This document shows, in pieces, positions 318 to 17,595 of a stretch of 20,211 bases of DNA. The notes under the pieces were generated by a model, which made no database searches, was not told the origin of the DNA, and saw only the letters and a list, made by a program, of their open reading frames with translations. The DNA is from a virus, in the IMG/VR virus record IMGVR_UViG_3300045135_000561, positions 1-20,211 of that record. One strand, written 5' to 3'. Both the position numbers and the translations under genes were made by a program. Position 1 is the first letter of the stretch. The number at the start of each line of letters is the position of its first letter.

Positions 318-484
318 TAGCTCAGGTTGTATCCGTTGTGCTTTGTCATTTGATATAGCGCGTCATTCAACCGCTTCAGTGTCTGCTTGTGCGCTCTATT
401 GTCCTGCACACTGTCTGCATTGCAGCGAAGTATTGCCCTGCGTGCCGTGCGCATTAACTCAATTAGGAGGTCGTCCTTCATCAT
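317..484 (-). CDS. small hypothetical protein (55 aa)
   Basis: The product is a charged, helical-looking protein of 55 residues that begins MMKDDLLIELMRTARRAILR; I recognise no family. Two adjacent ATG codons at 484 and 481 can start it. The frame is open much further upstream, to 853, but that part runs antiphase through the NinG-type gene and looks like a shadow, so the start is placed at the ATG pair. It overlaps the end of the NinG-type gene by 26 bases, and its TAA overlaps the ATG of the HNH gene. This tight coupling and the lack of any other gene at 317-458 support a real gene. Its role is unknown. Confidence 0.65.
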   Translation of the reverse strand: MMKDDLLIELMRTARRAILRCNADSVQDNRAHKQTLKRLNDALYQMTKHNGYNLS

Positions 485-893
485 CAACTCTTTCTCGATG
501 TTGTGCGTATAGTCTACGGTAGTGCTGCAACAGTTTTCCAAGGTCAGCTCTGCTAAGTTGGCCGCCTCTTCGAGCCTTGTCCATAAGTCTTTGTGCCCGT
601 CCTCGTTCCACTCTCTCCAGCGCTTGCCCAAATAAATACTGTTCGCCTCGACCATATTTCCCGAAGCGGTTACAATATCGACATTGCGGGGCAACGTTAT
701 GCTCATCATATCGTAGGCACTCGATTCGCCTGCCGATAAAGTGCCCGCAGTCCATTTGTGCGATGGGCAGATGTCTTTGACACGTAATGCAGGTGACGTG
801 TCCGTCACTGTCTGCGTTCGAATGAAGGATGTATTTGCTAAATATCGCATCAAGCTGGCGTTTCAGTGTTTTCTTCTTCGGTTGTTTGGGCAT
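459..893 (-). CDS. NinG/Rap-type recombination protein
   Basis: This 144-residue protein carries the cysteine/histidine pattern of the NinG (Rap) family: CITC (C35, C38), then MDCGHFIGRR (C49, H51), then an R-x-D-x-x-N stretch leading to APQCRYCN (C71, C74) and a GKYGRGEQYLFG segment. Lambda Rap is a structure-specific nuclease that acts on recombination intermediates, so a Holliday-junction or D-loop processing role is likely. The N-terminus is lysine-rich (KQPKKKTLKR) and the C-terminal third is arginine-rich and helical. The gene overlaps the preceding gene by 44 bases and the next by 26. Its place in the replication and recombination operon, beside an SSB-like protein and a putative annealing protein, agrees with this function. 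Confidence 0.9.
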   Translation of the reverse strand: MPKQPKKKTLKRQLDAIFSKYILHSNADSDGHVTCITCQRHLPIAQMDCGHFIGRRIECLRYDEHNVAPQCRYCNRFGKYGRGEQYLFGQALERVERGRAQRLMDKARRGGQLSRADLGKLLQHYRRLYAQHRERVDDEGRPPN

Positions 894-1233: not shown

Positions 1234-1646
1234 AAGAAAAAAAGTAGTACACGACGGTCGCCCGTGTGTGGTTCAACTTTGTGCCGCACGTCACTGGTGT
1301 GATATATCAGCTCGTTTTGATTGAGTCCAAGCGTGAACCCGTCGTAGCATATCCAACCGCCTGCGTACTGCGTAATTTTTGACAGCATCACAATCACGCC
1401 GACTTGACACCACTGCATATGTCCCATTGTGCCTGTGTCGGTGTGCCATTCGTGGCCGTTTGGGTTGCGCTCTACGCACATGTACGCTTTTTCGTGCGGT
1501 CTGACGGGTATGATGGCCGCCAGCTTGTTGATAACGCTTTTCTCGTGTTCGTGTAAGGCGTTTTCGAGCTGTTTGCGCATCCTTACGTTGTCGTAAAAGT
1601 ATTGCAGCTCGTCGTCGCTCAGAAATTGTGTGTGTAGGCGTTTCAT
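1230..1646 (-). CDS. 2OG-Fe(II) oxygenase-like protein
   Basis: This compact 138-residue protein has the signature of the 2-oxoglutarate/Fe(II) double-stranded beta-helix dioxygenases. It shows an iron-binding H-x-D at H68 and D70 (GHEWHTDTG), a distal histidine H122 in DVRHKVEPHTGDRR, and an arginine at 131 or 132 placed to bind 2-oxoglutarate. The strand-rich VGVIVMLSKI and GGWICYDG segments fit the fold. Family members hydroxylate proteins, nucleic acids or small molecules; the substrate here is unknown. The N-terminal 50 residues are helical. Its ATG overlaps the stop of the upstream gene (ATGA). A base- or host-modifying role would be a reasonable guess in a replication operon but is not shown by the sequence. 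Confidence 0.78.
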   Translation of the reverse strand: MKRLHTQFLSDDELQYFYDNVRMRKQLENALHEHEKSVINKLAAIIPVRPHEKAYMCVERNPNGHEWHTDTGTMGHMQWCQVGVIVMLSKITQYAGGWICYDGFTLGLNQNELIYHTSDVRHKVEPHTGDRRVLLFFL

Positions 1647-2392
1647 TCGTTGTCTTTTGGTGGTGTGTAAATGTTGTGTACCTCTTGCCAGCGTTTTTGC
1701 TTTTGTCTGTTCTCCATCTCCTCGCGCTCCGTGTACGTTAGGCGGTTCTCGCCTCGCATCCAGTCCTGTGGTGACACGCGTGCCGCGATCGGGTTTATTT
1801 CGGTTGCAAACTCAGGCGTGATGTGTCGAAGCGCCTCCGTTCGCATGCGTTCAAAGTCCGCCGCTTCGTCCTGCCGTATTTTGGTCACTACTGGTTGCTT
1901 CAGTTGCTCGTACTTGGTAAAGCACTCCACAAATTGCGCGAGTTTCAGGCGCTCGTAGTAGCCTCCAAAGGTCTCCTTGGCCATCATGTACAGGCACAGC
2001 CGCCAGTCTTCAATTGTAAACGTCGGAAAGCCTTTGACCAGCTCGTCCAACACCATCTTGTATTCGTCGCCCTCGGTCAGCGTCTTGTTTGCGTCTACGA
2101 ATCGCACGCACTTTGCCAGCATAGCAATAAGCGCCGCACGGGTCGCCTGCTCGTCTAGCTTGAGCGCTGTGCGGACGTTAGTGCCTTTAAAGGCGGTTTC
2201 GATTGTCACCTGAGATATTTCCTGTTTCTGCAAGCTCTCTAAGCTGATCGCCAAGCTCGCCTCCTTCAAGCGCTGCCTTTCCGCTGGTTCGAGTTCGCCT
2301 GCTCTTGGATGGACCAAATACGAGGCCTTTCCATCCGTTTGCAATTGCTGTATGAATTGCCTCGATTGCTCTGCTTTCTGTAGTGTGTTCAT
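1643..2392 (-). CDS. replication-module protein, possible helicase loader
   Basis: This 249-residue, mostly helical protein directly follows the initiator gene. I cannot assign a family with certainty. The central part (about residues 75-170) contains KCVRFVDANKTLTEGDEYK and TIEDWRLCLYMMAKETFGGYY. The C-terminus is rich in charged and aromatic residues and ends in YTPPKDNE. Being next to an initiator with an intragenic origin is the arrangement of lambda O and P, which suggests, by position only, a helicase loader or replisome adaptor. There is no Walker motif, so it is not DnaC-like. A TAG lies two codons upstream of the ATG at 2392, so the frame cannot start earlier. The first 68 residues overlap the initiator gene out of frame. 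Confidence 0.75.
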   Translation of the reverse strand: MNTLQKAEQSRQFIQQLQTDGKASYLVHPRAGELEPAERQRLKEASLAISLESLQKQEISQVTIETAFKGTNVRTALKLDEQATRAALIAMLAKCVRFVDANKTLTEGDEYKMVLDELVKGFPTFTIEDWRLCLYMMAKETFGGYYERLKLAQFVECFTKYEQLKQPVVTKIRQDEAADFERMRTEALRHITPEFATEINPIAARVSPQDWMRGENRLTYTEREEMENRQKQKRWQEVHNIYTPPKDNE

Positions 2393-2918
2393 TTGCTAGT
2401 GTCATTAGTGCACGTTGTTCGCTCTGTGCAGTTTTGTATTGGAAGCGGTGATCGGTGCGCTTGTACTCCAGCCACTCGGTCCATGCTTCTCTAAATTTTT
2501 CGGTTTCATACGGCAACACCACACCGCGCACTTGTGCGCTTTTAGTAATTGACTTAGTAGGTGTATTAGTATATGTATTAGTATGTGCTGAATTCTGCGC
2601 ATTCGTTTGCGTAGATTTACGCACTCGTTTGCGCGGATTTACGCACTCGTTTGCGCTATTTTGCGCATTCGTTTGCGCAGATTTACGCAGTCGTCGGTTG
2701 TATCTGCTGCCCTCTCGGATAAGGTATCCGCGCTTTATGAGGTTGCTGATGTAGCCTCTGGCGGTCGCCTCGGATACGTTCAGCAGCTTCGCGAAGTGAT
2801 CGTTTCCTGCAAAGCACTCTTTAAAGCTGGCGACCTCAGCAAGCAGCACCCGTTCGTTGGGGTGCAGCTCGCTCAGGTTCCAGATGTCAATCGGTATGCT
2901 CACGTACTTACGCTGCAT
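2187..2918 (-). CDS. replication initiator, winged-helix, with intragenic origin
   Basis: This 243-residue protein has three parts. The N-terminal 75 residues form a helix-turn-helix/winged-helix domain (HPNERVLLAEVASFKECFAGND, then FAKLLNVSEATARGYISNLIKRGYLIREG). This arrangement is typical of phage replication proteins and of the DnaD/RepA class. Residues 76-128 are a low-complexity linker of repeated asparagine, serine, threonine and basic residues. Residues 135-200 form a C-terminal helical domain ending IANGWKGLV, which resembles the C-terminal domain of DnaD-like proteins. The linker DNA carries five 22-bp iterons and an AT-rich repeat, so the gene probably contains its own origin, as lambda O does. 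The ATG at 2918 is preferred to an in-frame TTG at 2921. It overlaps the upstream small gene by 11 bases. Confidence 0.85.
   Translation of the reverse strand: MQRKYVSIPIDIWNLSELHPNERVLLAEVASFKECFAGNDHFAKLLNVSEATARGYISNLIKRGYLIREGSRYNRRLRKSAQTNAQNSANECVNPRKRVRKSTQTNAQNSAHTNTYTNTPTKSITKSAQVRGVVLPYETEKFREAWTEWLEYKRTDHRFQYKTAQSEQRALMTLANEHTTESRAIEAIHTAIANGWKGLVFGPSKSRRTRTSGKAALEGGELGDQLRELAETGNISGDNRNRL
2563..2584. repeat. AT-rich direct repeats GTATTAGTAT
   Basis: Two copies of GTATTAGTAT at 2563-2572 and 2575-2584 form a 12-bp period within the AT-rich stretch 2540-2593. They are the likely easily melted part of the origin next to the iterons. In the protein they encode a threonine/asparagine/tyrosine linker (NTYTNTPT). 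Confidence 0.7.
2594..2703. repeat. five tandem 22-bp iterons
   Basis: Units start at 2594, 2616, 2638, 2660 and 2682, an exact 22-bp spacing. The plus-strand core is rCGCAyTCGTTTGCG, two GCGC-like arms either side of TCGTTT. Units 1-4 are nearly identical, and unit 5 keeps only the first half. The period is not a multiple of three, so successive units encode different residues while the DNA stays conserved. This points to selection on the DNA as a protein-binding site. Confidence 0.88.
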
Positions 2919-3287: not shown

Positions 3288-3411
3288 CTCTCTCAAATTG
3301 TAGTTCAAACTTTACGCCTTGATCGTTCAGGCGCTGGATGTATCGCAGCATGCTGTCGGTTCGTTCAAAGCGTATGCTGGTGCGTTGTTGGTGCAGCTTG
3401 ACCTTATACAT
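3244..3411 (-). CDS. small hypothetical protein (55 aa)
   Basis: The frame begins MYKVKLHQQRTSIRFERTDS and ends ATPLR, 55 residues. A short beta-alpha-beta pattern is suggested (KVKLHQQ, a helix around MLRYIQRLND, then VKFELQFE), but no family is recognised. Its ATG shares a base with the stop of the DUF3127 gene (TGATG), which is the usual junction style here. Its end overlaps the HTH gene by about 44 bases. Without it, about 120 bases between neighbouring genes would be empty, unlike the rest of the operon. Confidence 0.65.
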   Translation of the reverse strand: MYKVKLHQQRTSIRFERTDSMLRYIQRLNDQGVKFELQFERDGDEPENVPATPLR

Positions 3412-3770
3412 CACCAAGGCATGTCGTCCACCTGTGGTGGGTTCTTCTTGCTGTCCTCGATCACGGTTTCGCGGATGCTCTTAGGCTCGACTATCTCGTA
3501 CTTCCAAGGCACCAGTGACAGGAACGCCTTGACCTCGCCAGTGCTTTCCTTTTTCCACTCCTTGCCTCGCACGTTGCAACGCATCTTGATGTTTGCACCC
3601 ACGGTCAGGCCAAGCGCTTCGTCCACGTCGTCCTTTAGGAACTCCACGGGTATCGTCTGCGGATATTGTCCGTCTGCTACTACGATGTGCACCTCGCACT
3701 TTCGAAATCCGCTGTCAAACTCGATGGGTTTGCAGATGCGGTGAATAACGCCCTCAATTGTCAACTCCAT
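3411..3770 (-). CDS. DUF3127 family SSB-like protein
   Basis: This 119-residue protein matches what I know of DUF3127, an OB-fold-like family widespread in Bacteroidota and their phages. It has an N-terminal strand (MELTIEGVIHRI), a basic middle strand run (GFRKCEVHIVVAD, then TIPVEFLKDD), a DEALGLTVGANIKMRCNVRGKEW segment and an aromatic FLSLVPWKYEIVE end. The C-terminus is acidic and ends DDMPW, like the acidic/aromatic tip by which bacterial SSB recruits partner proteins. It probably binds single-stranded DNA during replication or recombination. Its start overlaps the upstream gene by 17 bases and its stop is TGATG-coupled to the next gene. Confidence 0.82.
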   Translation of the reverse strand: MELTIEGVIHRICKPIEFDSGFRKCEVHIVVADGQYPQTIPVEFLKDDVDEALGLTVGANIKMRCNVRGKEWKKESTGEVKAFLSLVPWKYEIVEPKSIRETVIEDSKKNPPQVDDMPW

Positions 3771-13100: not shown

Positions 13101-13499
13101 TCAAATATCGTCAATTTCAAACCAACCGTTGTCAATCATATACTGCTGATCCCGAACGGTTACAGTGCTGGGTATGATCGCAGCGAATGGAAAGCTGTGG
13201 CTGTTCAGCACGTATGACTGCAATGCAAACCGCTCGTCTGCTGTCAGCTCTGGAAAAAGGCTCACCAGCTTTTCCAGCGTCGCCTGTTCGTGTACGGGAA
13301 TCATGTACTCCGTATCCACCTGCAAAGCGAATTGTACGCCGTCGGGGTGTTCAATCACACCGAACACCGTCCCGTCCTTTTGGTACGGCTCCTGCACGGC
13401 CAGCGGCGTTGTAATGTTGTAGAGTTCGCGCGTAATTGATTTGGCGCGTTTCTCGCTTGTTAGCGTTCCTTCGGGTAGGACTATGATGTACTGCGCCAT
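13101..13499 (-). CDS. hypothetical protein (132 aa)
   Basis: This 132-residue protein begins MAQYIIVLPEGTLTSEKRAK. It has strand-like segments (GVIEHPDGVQFALQVDTEYM), a helical middle (EQATLEKLVSLFPELTADER) and a strand-rich end (IPSTVTVRDQQYMIDNGWFE). No family is recognised. It follows the large tail-completion/adhesin gene and overlaps it by one base (TAATG). A structural role is likely from position. Confidence 0.75.
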   Translation of the reverse strand: MAQYIIVLPEGTLTSEKRAKSITRELYNITTPLAVQEPYQKDGTVFGVIEHPDGVQFALQVDTEYMIPVHEQATLEKLVSLFPELTADERFALQSYVLNSHSFPFAAIIPSTVTVRDQQYMIDNGWFEIDDI

Positions 13500-16400
13500 T
13501 AGTAGATGCTGTAAAAGGTGTTGATGTTGTCCTCGATGTTCGTGCGGTTGCTTGATTGGTCGGAATTGAAAATTACTATTTCTTGAAATTTTCCGTCATA
13601 AAATAGCGACGCTTGGTTACGTGAAAAGAAATTCAATTCATCTGTCGCGCTTGAATCGCCTAAATCGGAGCCGCTTATTAAACTCCAACTGACCGCGCTT
13701 CCGTTTTGGTATAATTCAGGCGTTGCTTTTGAAATTAAAGTGGCAAGATTTTGATTCGTTCCTATCCAACCGCTTGCGGCATTCCATTTGTAATTGGAAC
13801 TTCGACGGATGTTAAAGGTGTTTCCAGTCGATGCGTGGAAATAAAAACCATCGTTCGAATTCGATGTTTCGCTTTGCTCTAATAAAAAACCTGCTGCAGC
13901 ATCGGGATTTGTTACAATGCAAACAGTCATATATGTATTTAATGTAATTGATGCAACTCTAAAGGAATCACCTGAATTTATATCCATGGCAGGCTTCCCG
14001 TTATCGGTCACCACGCCCGTAGTCCCGTCGTAAATCTTTGGCTGATTCGCCGCCGTCGTTTGCGTCGCGTCTACGCCCGTACCGACTTGCGAGTACCAAG
14101 TTTTTACAAAGCCGTCAGAACTACCGCAGAAGGCCGCCAGTTCTACCGTTGAAAGCTCGCCAAATACATTGAACCCGATGTCAGATTCGGCGTTGTCGCT
14201 TGCCCGTCGTACCCGTATCGCTGACCCGCTGTACGAGCTTGAGAGCTTGCGGAGTGAGTAGGCCGCCGCCGCTCCTGTATACGTGTCGAGTAGTGGCGTG
14301 TTTTGGGTGAAGTAGTCGCCGACGTTGGATTCGATGCTGGTGCGGTCGGTGGATTTGTCGGAGGCGTAGAAAATAAGTTCTTGGTGCTTGCCGTCAAAAT
14401 ATTGTGACGCTCCGCCATTCGTCCACCATCCTATCGCACTATCTCCGCCAATAGCATTCCAATTCTGTACGCCCGTCAATGATAAACTTTGCCCGTCTTC
14501 CCACATAAATACGTCAGTCGCCGCAGTACCCGCACCGTCGTAGATATTGGTGTGCAAGTGTTGGTTAGTATTAACAAGAACCGTGTCGTTGGGCGCGGCT
14601 TTATTTCCAAGTATTGCGCCTTTGGTGTCGTATGAAGTGTTGCCGCTAAATTCTAAACCAAAAACATTCGTGCCTCCTGTATTCTTAACGAAATACGAAT
14701 GCCAAAAATCTGATGTTGCAGGCGAGCTGTTGAGAGCGTAAATATTAAAAGCGGAAATGCCCGACGCAAAATCAAAATTTGAAAAGGTTAGGTAAGTACT
14801 TGCGCCATCAAAACTAACTGCCGCTTGGCCTGCTTCCTTCACAATCGCGCTGCCCGTGTAAATAGTCGGCTGGTTTGCGGCGGTTGCTTGTGTGGCATCA
14901 TTCCCGTTTCCGCTTTGGTCTTTCCAAGTTTGAACCGTGCACGTAGTTCCTGAACAGAAAGTATTGATAGCCGCCTCGTCGATGTTTCCGTTTGAGTCAA
15001 ATCCTATCGTGGTAGTCGTAGAATCGGAAGCCCTACGGATCACCATGCAATCGGTATTATCTCGCTTGAGTTGTCTTACCGAATATGCCGCTGCTGCATT
15101 CTCTCCGTATTGCTCGTCTAGGAGTTTCGCGCTTTGGTAGTACCCCGAAACATTGCCCTCGATGGATGTTCTGTTGGTGCTTTTGTCGGATTGCCAAATA
15201 ATTAACTCTTGATAATCCACCTGTGTTTCGTTTGAACCCGTAGAAAACGCTCCTATCCTTATGGGGTCAAGGCTGCTAATTGCGCCCTTTGTAAAACTCG
15301 AACCAATAGATGCGCTATTTTTATAAAATTGCGCGTTTGTTGTATCGGTGTAGAAACTGATAATATTTTGGTTCGTATCAGCAGATACTGTTGAGGTTAC
15401 ACCTCTATAATGCAAGTCCCAATTACCTGTAGTATTATTCCAAAGGACATACAATTGCTCATTAGGTTTTCGCGAAATCGTTGTGCTGACCTGACCGCCA
15501 GCAACATTTTCAAATTTCTGTACTGTACTGACTGCAATGTTCGTTGTGCTTATTGTTAACGCGCTGTCCAAAAAATCGTCACTTCCATCAAATTGCAACG
15601 CCAAACGCCCGCCATCTTTTACCAAGGCTCCCCCCGTGTAGATAGTCGGTTGATTCGCTGGTGTCGTTTGGCTTGCGTCGTTACCGCTTCCCGTCGCTCC
15701 GCTTTGGCTTTGGTCGTGCCACACCTGTACCGTACACGTAGTGCCAGTACAGAAGGTTGTAATAGCTGCCTCATCGATGTCTTCACCATCGAAGCCAATC
15801 GTTGTGGTCGTGCCGTCCGAAGCTCTGCGGATAGTCATGCAAGCCCCCGTGTAATTTCCATTCAAGCGACGGGTTCCGTATGCCGCCGCAGCTCCGCTTC
15901 CGTACGATTCATTCAGCAAGCCCGTGAACGTGGGAGCTTCCGCTACCTCCTCCCACGTCATTTTCAGGCTAATAGGAACCGTGCCGCCTGTGCGTGCCTT
16001 CAGGTACGCAAGCAGCGTAGCCTTGGCGCTTGCATACGTCGTGTCATCAGCGATGTCTGCAAATTGCGTCCAGTCGCCGCTGGTGTTCGGATCGGCCTGC
16101 GCCTTCTCTGCATAGTACAGCTTTCGGCGAATGTCAAAGCCCGTTGTTGCCGTGTCCGTCTGCGCGTCTTCGTGCAGTCCGTCGCCGTCAGCCTGTGCCG
16201 TATAGTACAGTTCCACCGTTTCCGTAGCGCCGTCCAGCAGAGTTTCCGCTTCGCTGTCGTAGTTGCCTGTGTATTGCTCACCATTACGGCCAACGATTAG
16301 CGTGCTGTTTTGCCATGTGCCCGACGCCGAATCATATTGCAAATAGTCATTGTCAGCAAGGCCGCTGATGGTTACGTCCGTCAGCTCGCGCAAATTGTCG

Positions 16401-17083
16401 GGCGCTGCATCTAGTGCCGCCTGTAAACCCGTTACGTTGCTTATCGCGATGTTGTCATTCACGAACTCGCCGCCGCTGTAAATGAGCACCTCACCGTCGC
16501 TCGGTAGGCTTACACTTGCATCGCTTAGGTCGCTCAGTTCGTTAGCACCTCCTGCGTCATTCGCTGGCTCCCAGTTGCCGCTCGTGCTGTTGTATGCGAT
16601 TAGCTGACCGTTCGTAACTCCAGTCACATCCACGTCGCTCAGATCACCAAGCACCGCACCCGTCACTGGCGTTCCCAGAGCAATGGTCACGTCGTCGCGC
16701 TTGATGCGAAAGGTGAACGTCAGCACCTGACTGTAGCGGCGTGGGTCGTATTCAATGTTCACGTCGACGTCATTGAACTGGATGCTTTCAACGTGCACGC
16801 CGTTGTATGTGCCGCTCACACGATCGAGTGCAGCACGGACCGCCACACCCAAGTCAGCCGCCGCATTGTAGCTGTCAGCGTAGCACAGAAATTCAAAGCG
16901 TACCTCATCGAGCTTCGACGGTCCATCGTGCGTGTCGTCTGGGTCTACGCTCTGCAACTGGTACACGACGAACGGCACAGCGGTCTCCTGCTCTGCAATC
17001 TCTGGAAAGATGTTAGTGCCTACAATGTCAGTGACGCCGCTGTTGGCGCTAAGAATACCATATACTGCCTTTCCTGCGTTCAT
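13499..17083 (-). CDS. tail-completion-like protein fused to fibre-like region and three GH54-like modules
   Basis: This 1194-residue protein has three parts. Residues 1-130 resemble DUF3168 tail completion proteins (MNAGKAVYGILSANSGVTDI, EQETAVPFVVYQL, RYSQVLTFTFRIKRD). Residues 131-390 are low-complexity fibre-like sequence with repeats of the form LSDLSD...GQLIAYNSTSGNW. Residues 389-650, 654-928 and 931-1194 are three copies of one module. Each has AAAAYxxRxL, IRRASDxTTTTIGFD, TFCxGTTC, a DQSGxGNDA-like stretch and ANQPTIY, then a beta-rich half ending in a DGKxQEIVxF-type strand. As I recall, fungal GH54 arabinofuranosidases share GSD-TTTTI, FCANTTC and YDQSG, so sugar binding or cleavage is likely. 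The gene is ATGA-linked to the gp10-like gene. Confidence 0.78.
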   Translation of the reverse strand: MNAGKAVYGILSANSGVTDIVGTNIFPEIAEQETAVPFVVYQLQSVDPDDTHDGPSKLDEVRFEFLCYADSYNAAADLGVAVRAALDRVSGTYNGVHVESIQFNDVDVNIEYDPRRYSQVLTFTFRIKRDDVTIALGTPVTGAVLGDLSDVDVTGVTNGQLIAYNSTSGNWEPANDAGGANELSDLSDASVSLPSDGEVLIYSGGEFVNDNIAISNVTGLQAALDAAPDNLRELTDVTISGLADNDYLQYDSASGTWQNSTLIVGRNGEQYTGNYDSEAETLLDGATETVELYYTAQADGDGLHEDAQTDTATTGFDIRRKLYYAEKAQADPNTSGDWTQFADIADDTTYASAKATLLAYLKARTGGTVPISLKMTWEEVAEAPTFTGLLNESYGSGAAAAYGTRRLNGNYTGACMTIRRASDGTTTTIGFDGEDIDEAAITTFCTGTTCTVQVWHDQSQSGATGSGNDASQTTPANQPTIYTGGALVKDGGRLALQFDGSDDFLDSALTISTTNIAVSTVQKFENVAGGQVSTTISRKPNEQLYVLWNNTTGNWDLHYRGVTSTVSADTNQNIISFYTDTTNAQFYKNSASIGSSFTKGAISSLDPIRIGAFSTGSNETQVDYQELIIWQSDKSTNRTSIEGNVSGYYQSAKLLDEQYGENAAAAYSVRQLKRDNTDCMVIRRASDSTTTTIGFDSNGNIDEAAINTFCSGTTCTVQTWKDQSGNGNDATQATAANQPTIYTGSAIVKEAGQAAVSFDGASTYLTFSNFDFASGISAFNIYALNSSPATSDFWHSYFVKNTGGTNVFGLEFSGNTSYDTKGAILGNKAAPNDTVLVNTNQHLHTNIYDGAGTAATDVFMWEDGQSLSLTGVQNWNAIGGDSAIGWWTNGGASQYFDGKHQELIFYASDKSTDRTSIESNVGDYFTQNTPLLDTYTGAAAAYSLRKLSSSYSGSAIRVRRASDNAESDIGFNVFGELSTVELAAFCGSSDGFVKTWYSQVGTGVDATQTTAANQPKIYDGTTGVVTDNGKPAMDINSGDSFRVASITLNTYMTVCIVTNPDAAAGFLLEQSETSNSNDGFYFHASTGNTFNIRRSSNYKWNAASGWIGTNQNLATLISKATPELYQNGSAVSWSLISGSDLGDSSATDELNFFSRNQASLFYDGKFQEIVIFNSDQSSNRTNIEDNINTFYSIY

Positions 17084-17595
17084 TTTACTCGTGTTGCGTT
17101 TACTGTCTTTGCTATTTCCTTGCGGTACTGCTCGCGCATCTTGTCAAATGCCTTCGGTGCAGCTGCTGTGATGGATTTGAAAAACACGTCCTTGTTTCGG
17201 TTGCTGCCCTTGATGAACTGGTCGTCACCTTCTACGATGTTAGCAAACCAGCCGTCCTCGTCTACTGGTGCGCGGCGGCCTACTTGTGGCCCGACCCAAT
17301 ACGAGTTGTGCTGATTGTCTATCAGCCAAACCTTGACCGACCTGCGCAGCGTACCGACTGGAATATCCATCTTGTAAGGCTTGCCAAAGGTCTCACTGCG
17401 CGCGGTGTGTCCACGTCGCAGGCGAATCGTCTCACGCGCATCGCGGATGTTGCCGATCATCTCCTTTTTGATGACGTTGCCAGCCGCGCGGTGAATCTTG
17501 CGCTGCGTCTTGCTATCCCTGATATGCTTGGCAATCTCTTTGAACTGCTTTTCAAGCGGCGTCGTGTGTGCAAATACTGTAGCTTTCCGTGCCAT
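17080..17595 (-). CDS. HK97 gp10-like neck/tail component
   Basis: From the ATG at 17595 the product is about 171 residues. The N-terminal half is basic and helical (FKEIAKHIRDSKTQRKIHRA, GNVIKKEMIGNIRDA), followed by GTLRRSVKVWLIDNQHNSYW and GPQVGRRAPVDEDGWFANIV. The GTLRRS and WVGP-type segments match the HK97-gp10 family, which helps join tail to head. The ATG shares one base with the stop of the head-closure gene (TGATG); the longer frame back to a TTG at 17616 is less likely. The stop is joined to the next ATG as ATGA. Confidence 0.82.
   Translation of the reverse strand: MARKATVFAHTTPLEKQFKEIAKHIRDSKTQRKIHRAAGNVIKKEMIGNIRDARETIRLRRGHTARSETFGKPYKMDIPVGTLRRSVKVWLIDNQHNSYWVGPQVGRRAPVDEDGWFANIVEGDDQFIKGSNRNKDVFFKSITAAAPKAFDKMREQYRKEIAKTVNATRVK

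Follow-up and report, generated by a model that had tools for sequence, protein, structure and literature searches.

Why should a marine phage's gene for a replication initiator carry, in its middle, a tandem array of short repeats with a period of 22 bp? This question is raised by IMG/VR record IMGVR_UViG_3300045135_000561, which was analysed over 20,211 bp (hereafter, the window); the record has no end repeats and the window is therefore possibly a fragment. The original prediction was an iteron-type origin that mirrors lambda O and ori. As argued below, the region is very probably a phage replication origin of the lambda type, situated within the gene that encodes its initiator. The features concerned are as follows.

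2187..2918, minus strand: initiator gene, 243 aa from the ATG at 2918; alternative TTG at 2921
2730..2771, minus strand: recognition helix, residues 50-63 in the AlphaFold model
2754-2756, minus strand: codon of residue 55, within the recognition helix
2585..2690, minus strand: iteron array, five 22-bp units, the fifth weaker
2673-2690, 2651-2668, 2629-2646 and 2607-2624: 18-bp dyads; a weaker fifth at 2585-2602
2539..2584, no strand: AT-rich element, candidate unwinding site, carrying ACTAATACAYAT 12-bp repeats
2554-2587: 12-bp AT-rich array, in the initiator linker
2526..2539, no strand: perfect inverted repeat GCGCAC-TT-GTGCGC with 6-bp arms, accessory

The initiator and the repeats in its linker

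The initiator consists of a winged-helix domain, a disordered linker and a helical C-terminal domain. In Pfam it matches HTH_36 (PF13730) over residues 18-67 with 29.1 bits (curated cut-off 25 bits), whereas no RepA_N (PF06970) domain at E up to 1 and no Rep_3 match were found; it also matches PHROG 270, a replication-initiator family. The AlphaFold model, whose mean pLDDT of only 61 leaves details uncertain, has helices at residues 10-63 and 140-194 and a linker at 72-130 with pLDDT below 50. The predicted placement of the repeats in the linker of a winged-helix initiator thus agrees with both the profile and the model. A PDB sequence search gave irrelevant matches only, and a fold search returned generic winged helices (Z 6-8), including N-terminal domains of DnaD, and was not discriminating.

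The relationship to lambda had been described as none, which goes too far. PHROG 678 ("replication initiation O-like") matches the window initiator (E 5e-12, residues 13-200, both domains) as well as lambda O (1.7e-35). Whereas Phage_rep_O (PF04492), which matches lambda O at 5.7e-36, has no match in the window initiator in Pfam at E up to 1, and hhalign of the two proteins directly gave no alignment. Since the Pfam test for the lambda O family failed, the claim made here concerns a lambda O/ori-like mode of action; the window initiator is not claimed to be a lambda O.

The five 22-mers start at 2594, 2616, 2638, 2660 and 2682 as predicted, with the unit at 2682 only partly conserved. Tandem Repeats Finder reports the array at 2598-2694 (period 22, 4.4 copies) with a score of 131, the best in the window. 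Besides, each 22-bp repeat holds an internal inverted repeat, TGCGY-N6-RCGCA, which the original prediction had overlooked; this pattern occurs exactly four times in the 20,211 bp, always inside the array, against 0.26 expected. The AT-rich 12-bp repeats and the perfect GCGCAC/GTGCGC inverted repeat were also found, and all three elements are situated within the disordered linker of the initiator. No other 46-bp segment of this DNA is as unstable as the one beginning at 2539. On the antisense strand, the inverted repeat together with a TTTT (2526-2543) resembles the hairpin of an intrinsic terminator, and relatives retaining the inverted repeat usually retain the A run ahead of the stem as well. 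Such a hairpin might stop antisense transcription into the origin.

Repeat classes and constraint on the DNA

Some 75 relatives emerged from two scans of viral contigs, the majority with identities down to 43%, and the best period is 22 bp in nearly all of them down to this level. Four repeat classes could be distinguished (RKSAQTNAQNSANECV, KNEPTKAQKCTNEGSK, RGVVQNEQGGTNRTLGW and RGVVANGQGGHKRTLGW), with the following members.

GCG class: includes the window
GCTC class: L023-L025, L027, L039, L090
GTGGTA class: L067-L071
GTGGG class: L072-L093

The prediction that the DNA rather than the protein is conserved was examined in two ways. None of 2000 synonymous-codon shuffles of the window gene reached the observed 22-bp score (42.5, against 26.5 for the top shuffle), and nine relatives gave the same outcome. 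Among divergent pairs of the GCG class, identity at third codon positions reaches 0.87 in the array, compared with 0.55 for the winged-helix part and 0.66 for the C-terminal part, while the corresponding amino-acid identities are 0.80, 0.78 and 0.63. The alignment of homologues, by which the original prediction could have been refuted, supported it: DNA period, dyad geometry and unstable stretch are kept, and the linker peptides are quite different between repeat classes. Both arms of the dyad change from class to class (GCGY/RCGC, GCTC/GAGC, GTGGTA/TACCAC), with complementarity and the 6-bp centre retained. With the GTGGG class left out, 74% of dyad positions are paired, compared with 7-38% for slid partners, and every one of the 82 distinct units has the G...C pair at dyad positions 3 and 16. 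For all 66 genes, the 46-bp segment with the lowest stability within the gene starts directly after the array.

The GTGGG class keeps the 22-bp period, but its dyad is poor (40% paired). In these arrays the right half-site has decayed. The sequences suggest a possible switch from dimer to monomer binding in this class, and dimer binding may not be universal given the poor dyad. As for the far inverted repeat, in many relatives a change in one arm is matched by a complementary change in the other; a universal role was rejected, as it is absent from two clades (L054-L064 and L072-L093). Further TGCGYN6RCGCA sites, 3-5 kb off the initiator in relatives, were explained by the coding sequences of a phosphatase (RGHTHQK) and a peptidase. 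No prophage relatives were found in genome contigs. Another iteron type is represented by a more distant HTH_36 initiator (L095:6001-6405) with longer linker repeats (GGTAGAAGCCAGCTTCTAGGGA). On L100, the 40-kb contig of L059, a second HTH_36 initiator-like gene (16578-17249) is located about 21 kb from the first and has linker repeats of its own with the dyad GCAAC-N4-GTTGC; this may mean that there are two origins or two elements, or that the contig is chimeric.

Joint exchange of reader and site

The repeat classes made it possible to follow the initiator and its sites together. The segment concerned is:

2520..2822 (approximate limits), minus strand: exchangeable cassette of recognition module, wing, iterons and AT-rich stretch

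Between the window and L039, nucleotide identity is 94% before the cassette (first 32 codons), 61-69% inside it and 97-99% after it (C-terminal third). Judging from this pattern, a cassette comprising the recognition helix, the wing, the iterons and the AT-rich stretch was exchanged. On trees, the repeat class changes three times (the minimum) for the recognition module, compared with five times each for the C-terminal domain and the first 32 codons, and a single clade for the GCG class is rejected on the C-terminal tree (p-AU 2.7e-68). The repeat class thus tracks the recognition module and not the C-terminal domain, so that reader and site travel as a unit. Within the recognition helix, residue 55 is G in 40 of 40 GCG-class rows, R in 4 of 4 GCTC-class rows and K in 22 of 22 GTGG-class rows (66 genes). 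The linkage of this residue to the repeat class, taken with the cassette exchange, is how a co-adapted protein and binding site would be expected to look.

These roughly 70 genes constitute a natural series in which initiator and site change together, so that a replicon's change of replication specificity, in protein and site at once, becomes directly testable. Matched initiator/site pairs for swap tests in vitro are offered by the window, L039, L023, L068 and L077.

Neighbouring genes and host

Three further genes of the window bear on the function and the host of this element.

1643..2209, minus strand: next gene, 188 aa, GTG start, 23-nt overlap with the initiator; position of lambda P
3411..3770, minus strand: DUF3127 single-strand-binding-like protein (PF11325, 45.6 bits; PHROG 4932), replication module
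459..893, minus strand: NinG/Rap-like junction nuclease (PHROG 5034, E 8e-18), replication/recombination module

The downstream gene is kept, with a 17-32 nt overlap, in the relatives in which the whole frame can be read. Its product is a candidate helicase loader, as yet unproven: profile searches including PHROG gave no recognisable family, and no phage record matched. A fold search was of no help, the best Z of 5.2 being under the level counted meaningful. Phage matches of the DUF3127 protein are confined to marine Bacteroidota phages (Cellulophaga, Nonlabens, Tenacibaculum), and among control genomes only a Bacteroides matched. The NinG-like protein has mixed best matches with a Bacteroides phage at the top. 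The predicted Bacteroidota host is thus likely, as far as the DUF3127 protein, the only one from which it is deduced, can tell. Elsewhere in the window, positions 13499-17083 (minus strand) encode a 1194-residue protein in which similar segments recur; its relatives are tail/virion proteins of cyanobacterial and actinobacterial phages.

A possible mechanism

The sequence itself establishes the repeats, their dyads, the constraint on the DNA, the unstable element, the linkage between class and reader and the exchange of the cassette. From the arrangement of these elements we infer binding, the dimer state, melting, helicase recruitment and a start of replication at the array. The N-terminal winged helix, probably as a dimer, would bind both halves of each 22-bp iteron, and as the units are about two helical turns apart, bound dimers would all be on the same side of the DNA. 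Binding of four to five dimers could fold the array and open the adjoining AT-rich stretch (2539-2584). The C-terminal domain would next recruit the helicase, probably via the product of the overlapping downstream gene. The little constraint on the linker as protein would leave its DNA free to double as origin. Joint replacement by recombination appears possible because the recognition helix and its sites are within about 150 bp of one gene, and such an event would confer a new replication specificity. The GC-skew check proposed with the original prediction gave no signal: over most of the coding strand G is in excess of C, and neither the window nor any of three longer contigs (40, 24 and 24 kb) shows a switch at the site.

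Comparison with known origins

Origins of this kind are already known from lambda, P22, L, SPP1 oriL and pSK41/pPR9. The likeness to lambda that had been predicted is supported. In the lambda O gene (NC_001416), four iterons at spacings of 20, 24 and 23 come first, then an AT-rich stretch and finally an inverted repeat. In ori-lambda and the O genes of Stx phages, as in the window, the origin is placed mid-way in the initiator gene and comprises at least four iterons, each of them an inverted repeat. The AT-rich stretch is promoter-distal with the inverted repeat beyond it, so that the order relative to transcription is identical, and a partner gene overlaps the end of the initiator gene (lambda P over O; here 1643-2209). 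Nevertheless, lambda iterons are irregularly spaced with a shorter centre, whereas those of the window recur at exactly 22 bp with a 6-bp centre; the lambda protein belongs to Phage_rep_O and that of the window to HTH_36, and the downstream gene here is not recognisably P.

The lambda iterons, being inverted repeats, are occupied by dimers of O (PMC7466680, PMC5043065), while in plasmids the iterons are direct repeats to which monomers bind (PMC5043065). The lambda-type trait of an iteron built as an inverted repeat is shared by the window and three of the four repeat classes. In Rep_3-type iteron plasmids, by contrast, simple direct repeats lie outside the gene, unlike the intragenic dyads of the window. 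Gene 18 of P22 and gene 18 of phage L encode initiators that are distantly related, and each of the two genes contains iterons of its own (PMC8022706). The repeats of these enterobacterial phages differ from those of the window, those of L being 11 bp long. The oriL of SPP1, located in gene 38, combines initiator-bound direct repeats with an AT-rich unwinding element, with loader and helicase genes next to it (PMC6316719). SPP1 has a second origin, oriR, whereas no second origin was found within the window, itself possibly a fragment. In the staphylococcal RepA_N plasmid pSK41, the Rep boxes are central in rep and encode the linker, and in the natural chimera pPR9 an HTH_36 (pfam13730) domain and its origin have replaced the RepA_N domain and origin while the C-terminal domain stayed (PMC5703833). 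Gene layout is alike in these cases; however, they are Firmicutes plasmids, and the exchange described here recurs within one phage family. No description of the window's initiator family, its repeat classes or the recurrent exchange was found in the literature searched. The lambda-style origin is thereby extended to an uncultured phage group, probably of Bacteroidota, in which the same literature describes no such origin.

Alternative explanations

Could the array instead be an operator through which the initiator represses or times its own and the following genes, with replication starting elsewhere? An autoregulator would equally show a winged-helix protein with dimer sites in its own gene, and the domain modelled by AlphaFold is as similar to transcription regulators as it is to DnaD. 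The sites, however, lie about 230 bp inside the coding sequence, in a region without any promoter-like signal above chance, and an operator needs no invariant adjoining stretch of least stability. Moreover, the protein families matched are replication initiators, and in cultivated phages whose HTH_36 initiators carry linker repeats, a gene for a helicase or a helicase loader adjoins the initiator gene. An operator in place of an origin is therefore improbable, though the two roles may coexist.

Still less probable is a centromere-like site, or one for packaging or recombination, bound by an initiator-like protein. Partition sites also show iterated dyads, and a distant HTH relative is encoded between parA and parB in Leptospira phage LE1; that gene itself lacks linker repeats, no ParA/ParB match was obtained among the neighbouring window proteins scanned, and the unstable AT-rich element and the replication neighbours favour an origin. 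The remaining proposal, a low-complexity disordered basic linker grown by slippage with no function for the DNA, can draw on the predicted disorder and on the repetitive look of SAQTNAQNSA. It is refuted by the synonymous shuffles, in which the period never arises, and by third-position identity, synonymous sites being more conserved in the linker than elsewhere; 22 is no multiple of 3, and unrelated linker peptides share the DNA period and the dyad geometry. We give it next to no credence, and an intragenic origin is the reading retained here.

Breadth among cultivated phages and the TAATACA motif

In 9 of the 12 cultivated-phage matches examined, a linker repeat of 22-24 bp matches or beats nearly all synonymous shuffles; two staphylococcal phages have a 15-bp AT-rich repeat instead, and Leptospira LE1 has no linker repeat. 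Repeats of 22-24 bp like those of the window are found in HTH_36 initiators of Lysinibacillus vB_LspM-01, Oceanospirillum GJ44, Pseudomonas HU1 and Flavonifractor Cormatin. Initiators of this group also have an AT-rich stretch behind the repeats, several with TAATACA, but they differ in repeat sequence and share 26-49% protein identity over partial length.

The motif TAATACA was found in 16 of 24 linkers (27 sites; synonymous shuffles give a mean of 4.4 and a maximum of 10) and in 7 of 10 cultivated phages, a number reached in none of 500 shuffles. As signs of a shared element, the motif and the repeats of cultivated phages are leads and not proof. It is conceivable, and we propose it only tentatively with the odds rather against it, that the intragenic origin is an evolvable specificity cassette far beyond the lambdoids, with HTH_36 linker iterons and a shared TAATACA-type unwinding motif in several phyla, repeated reader/site swaps of about 300 bp, and the iteron class indicated by residue 55 (G, R or K). 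If true, the initiator or its loader would recognise TAATACA as a single-strand element. As an idea only, it may be likened to the element recognised by DnaD, which consists of two TnnT motifs in single-stranded DNA (PMC10201434). For phage genomes in general, a rule for finding origins would be to inspect the linker of HTH_36 initiators. TAATACA is seen behind the iterons in the linkers of L106, L108 and L110-L114, from phages of different bacterial phyla, and at 2564-2585 of the window.
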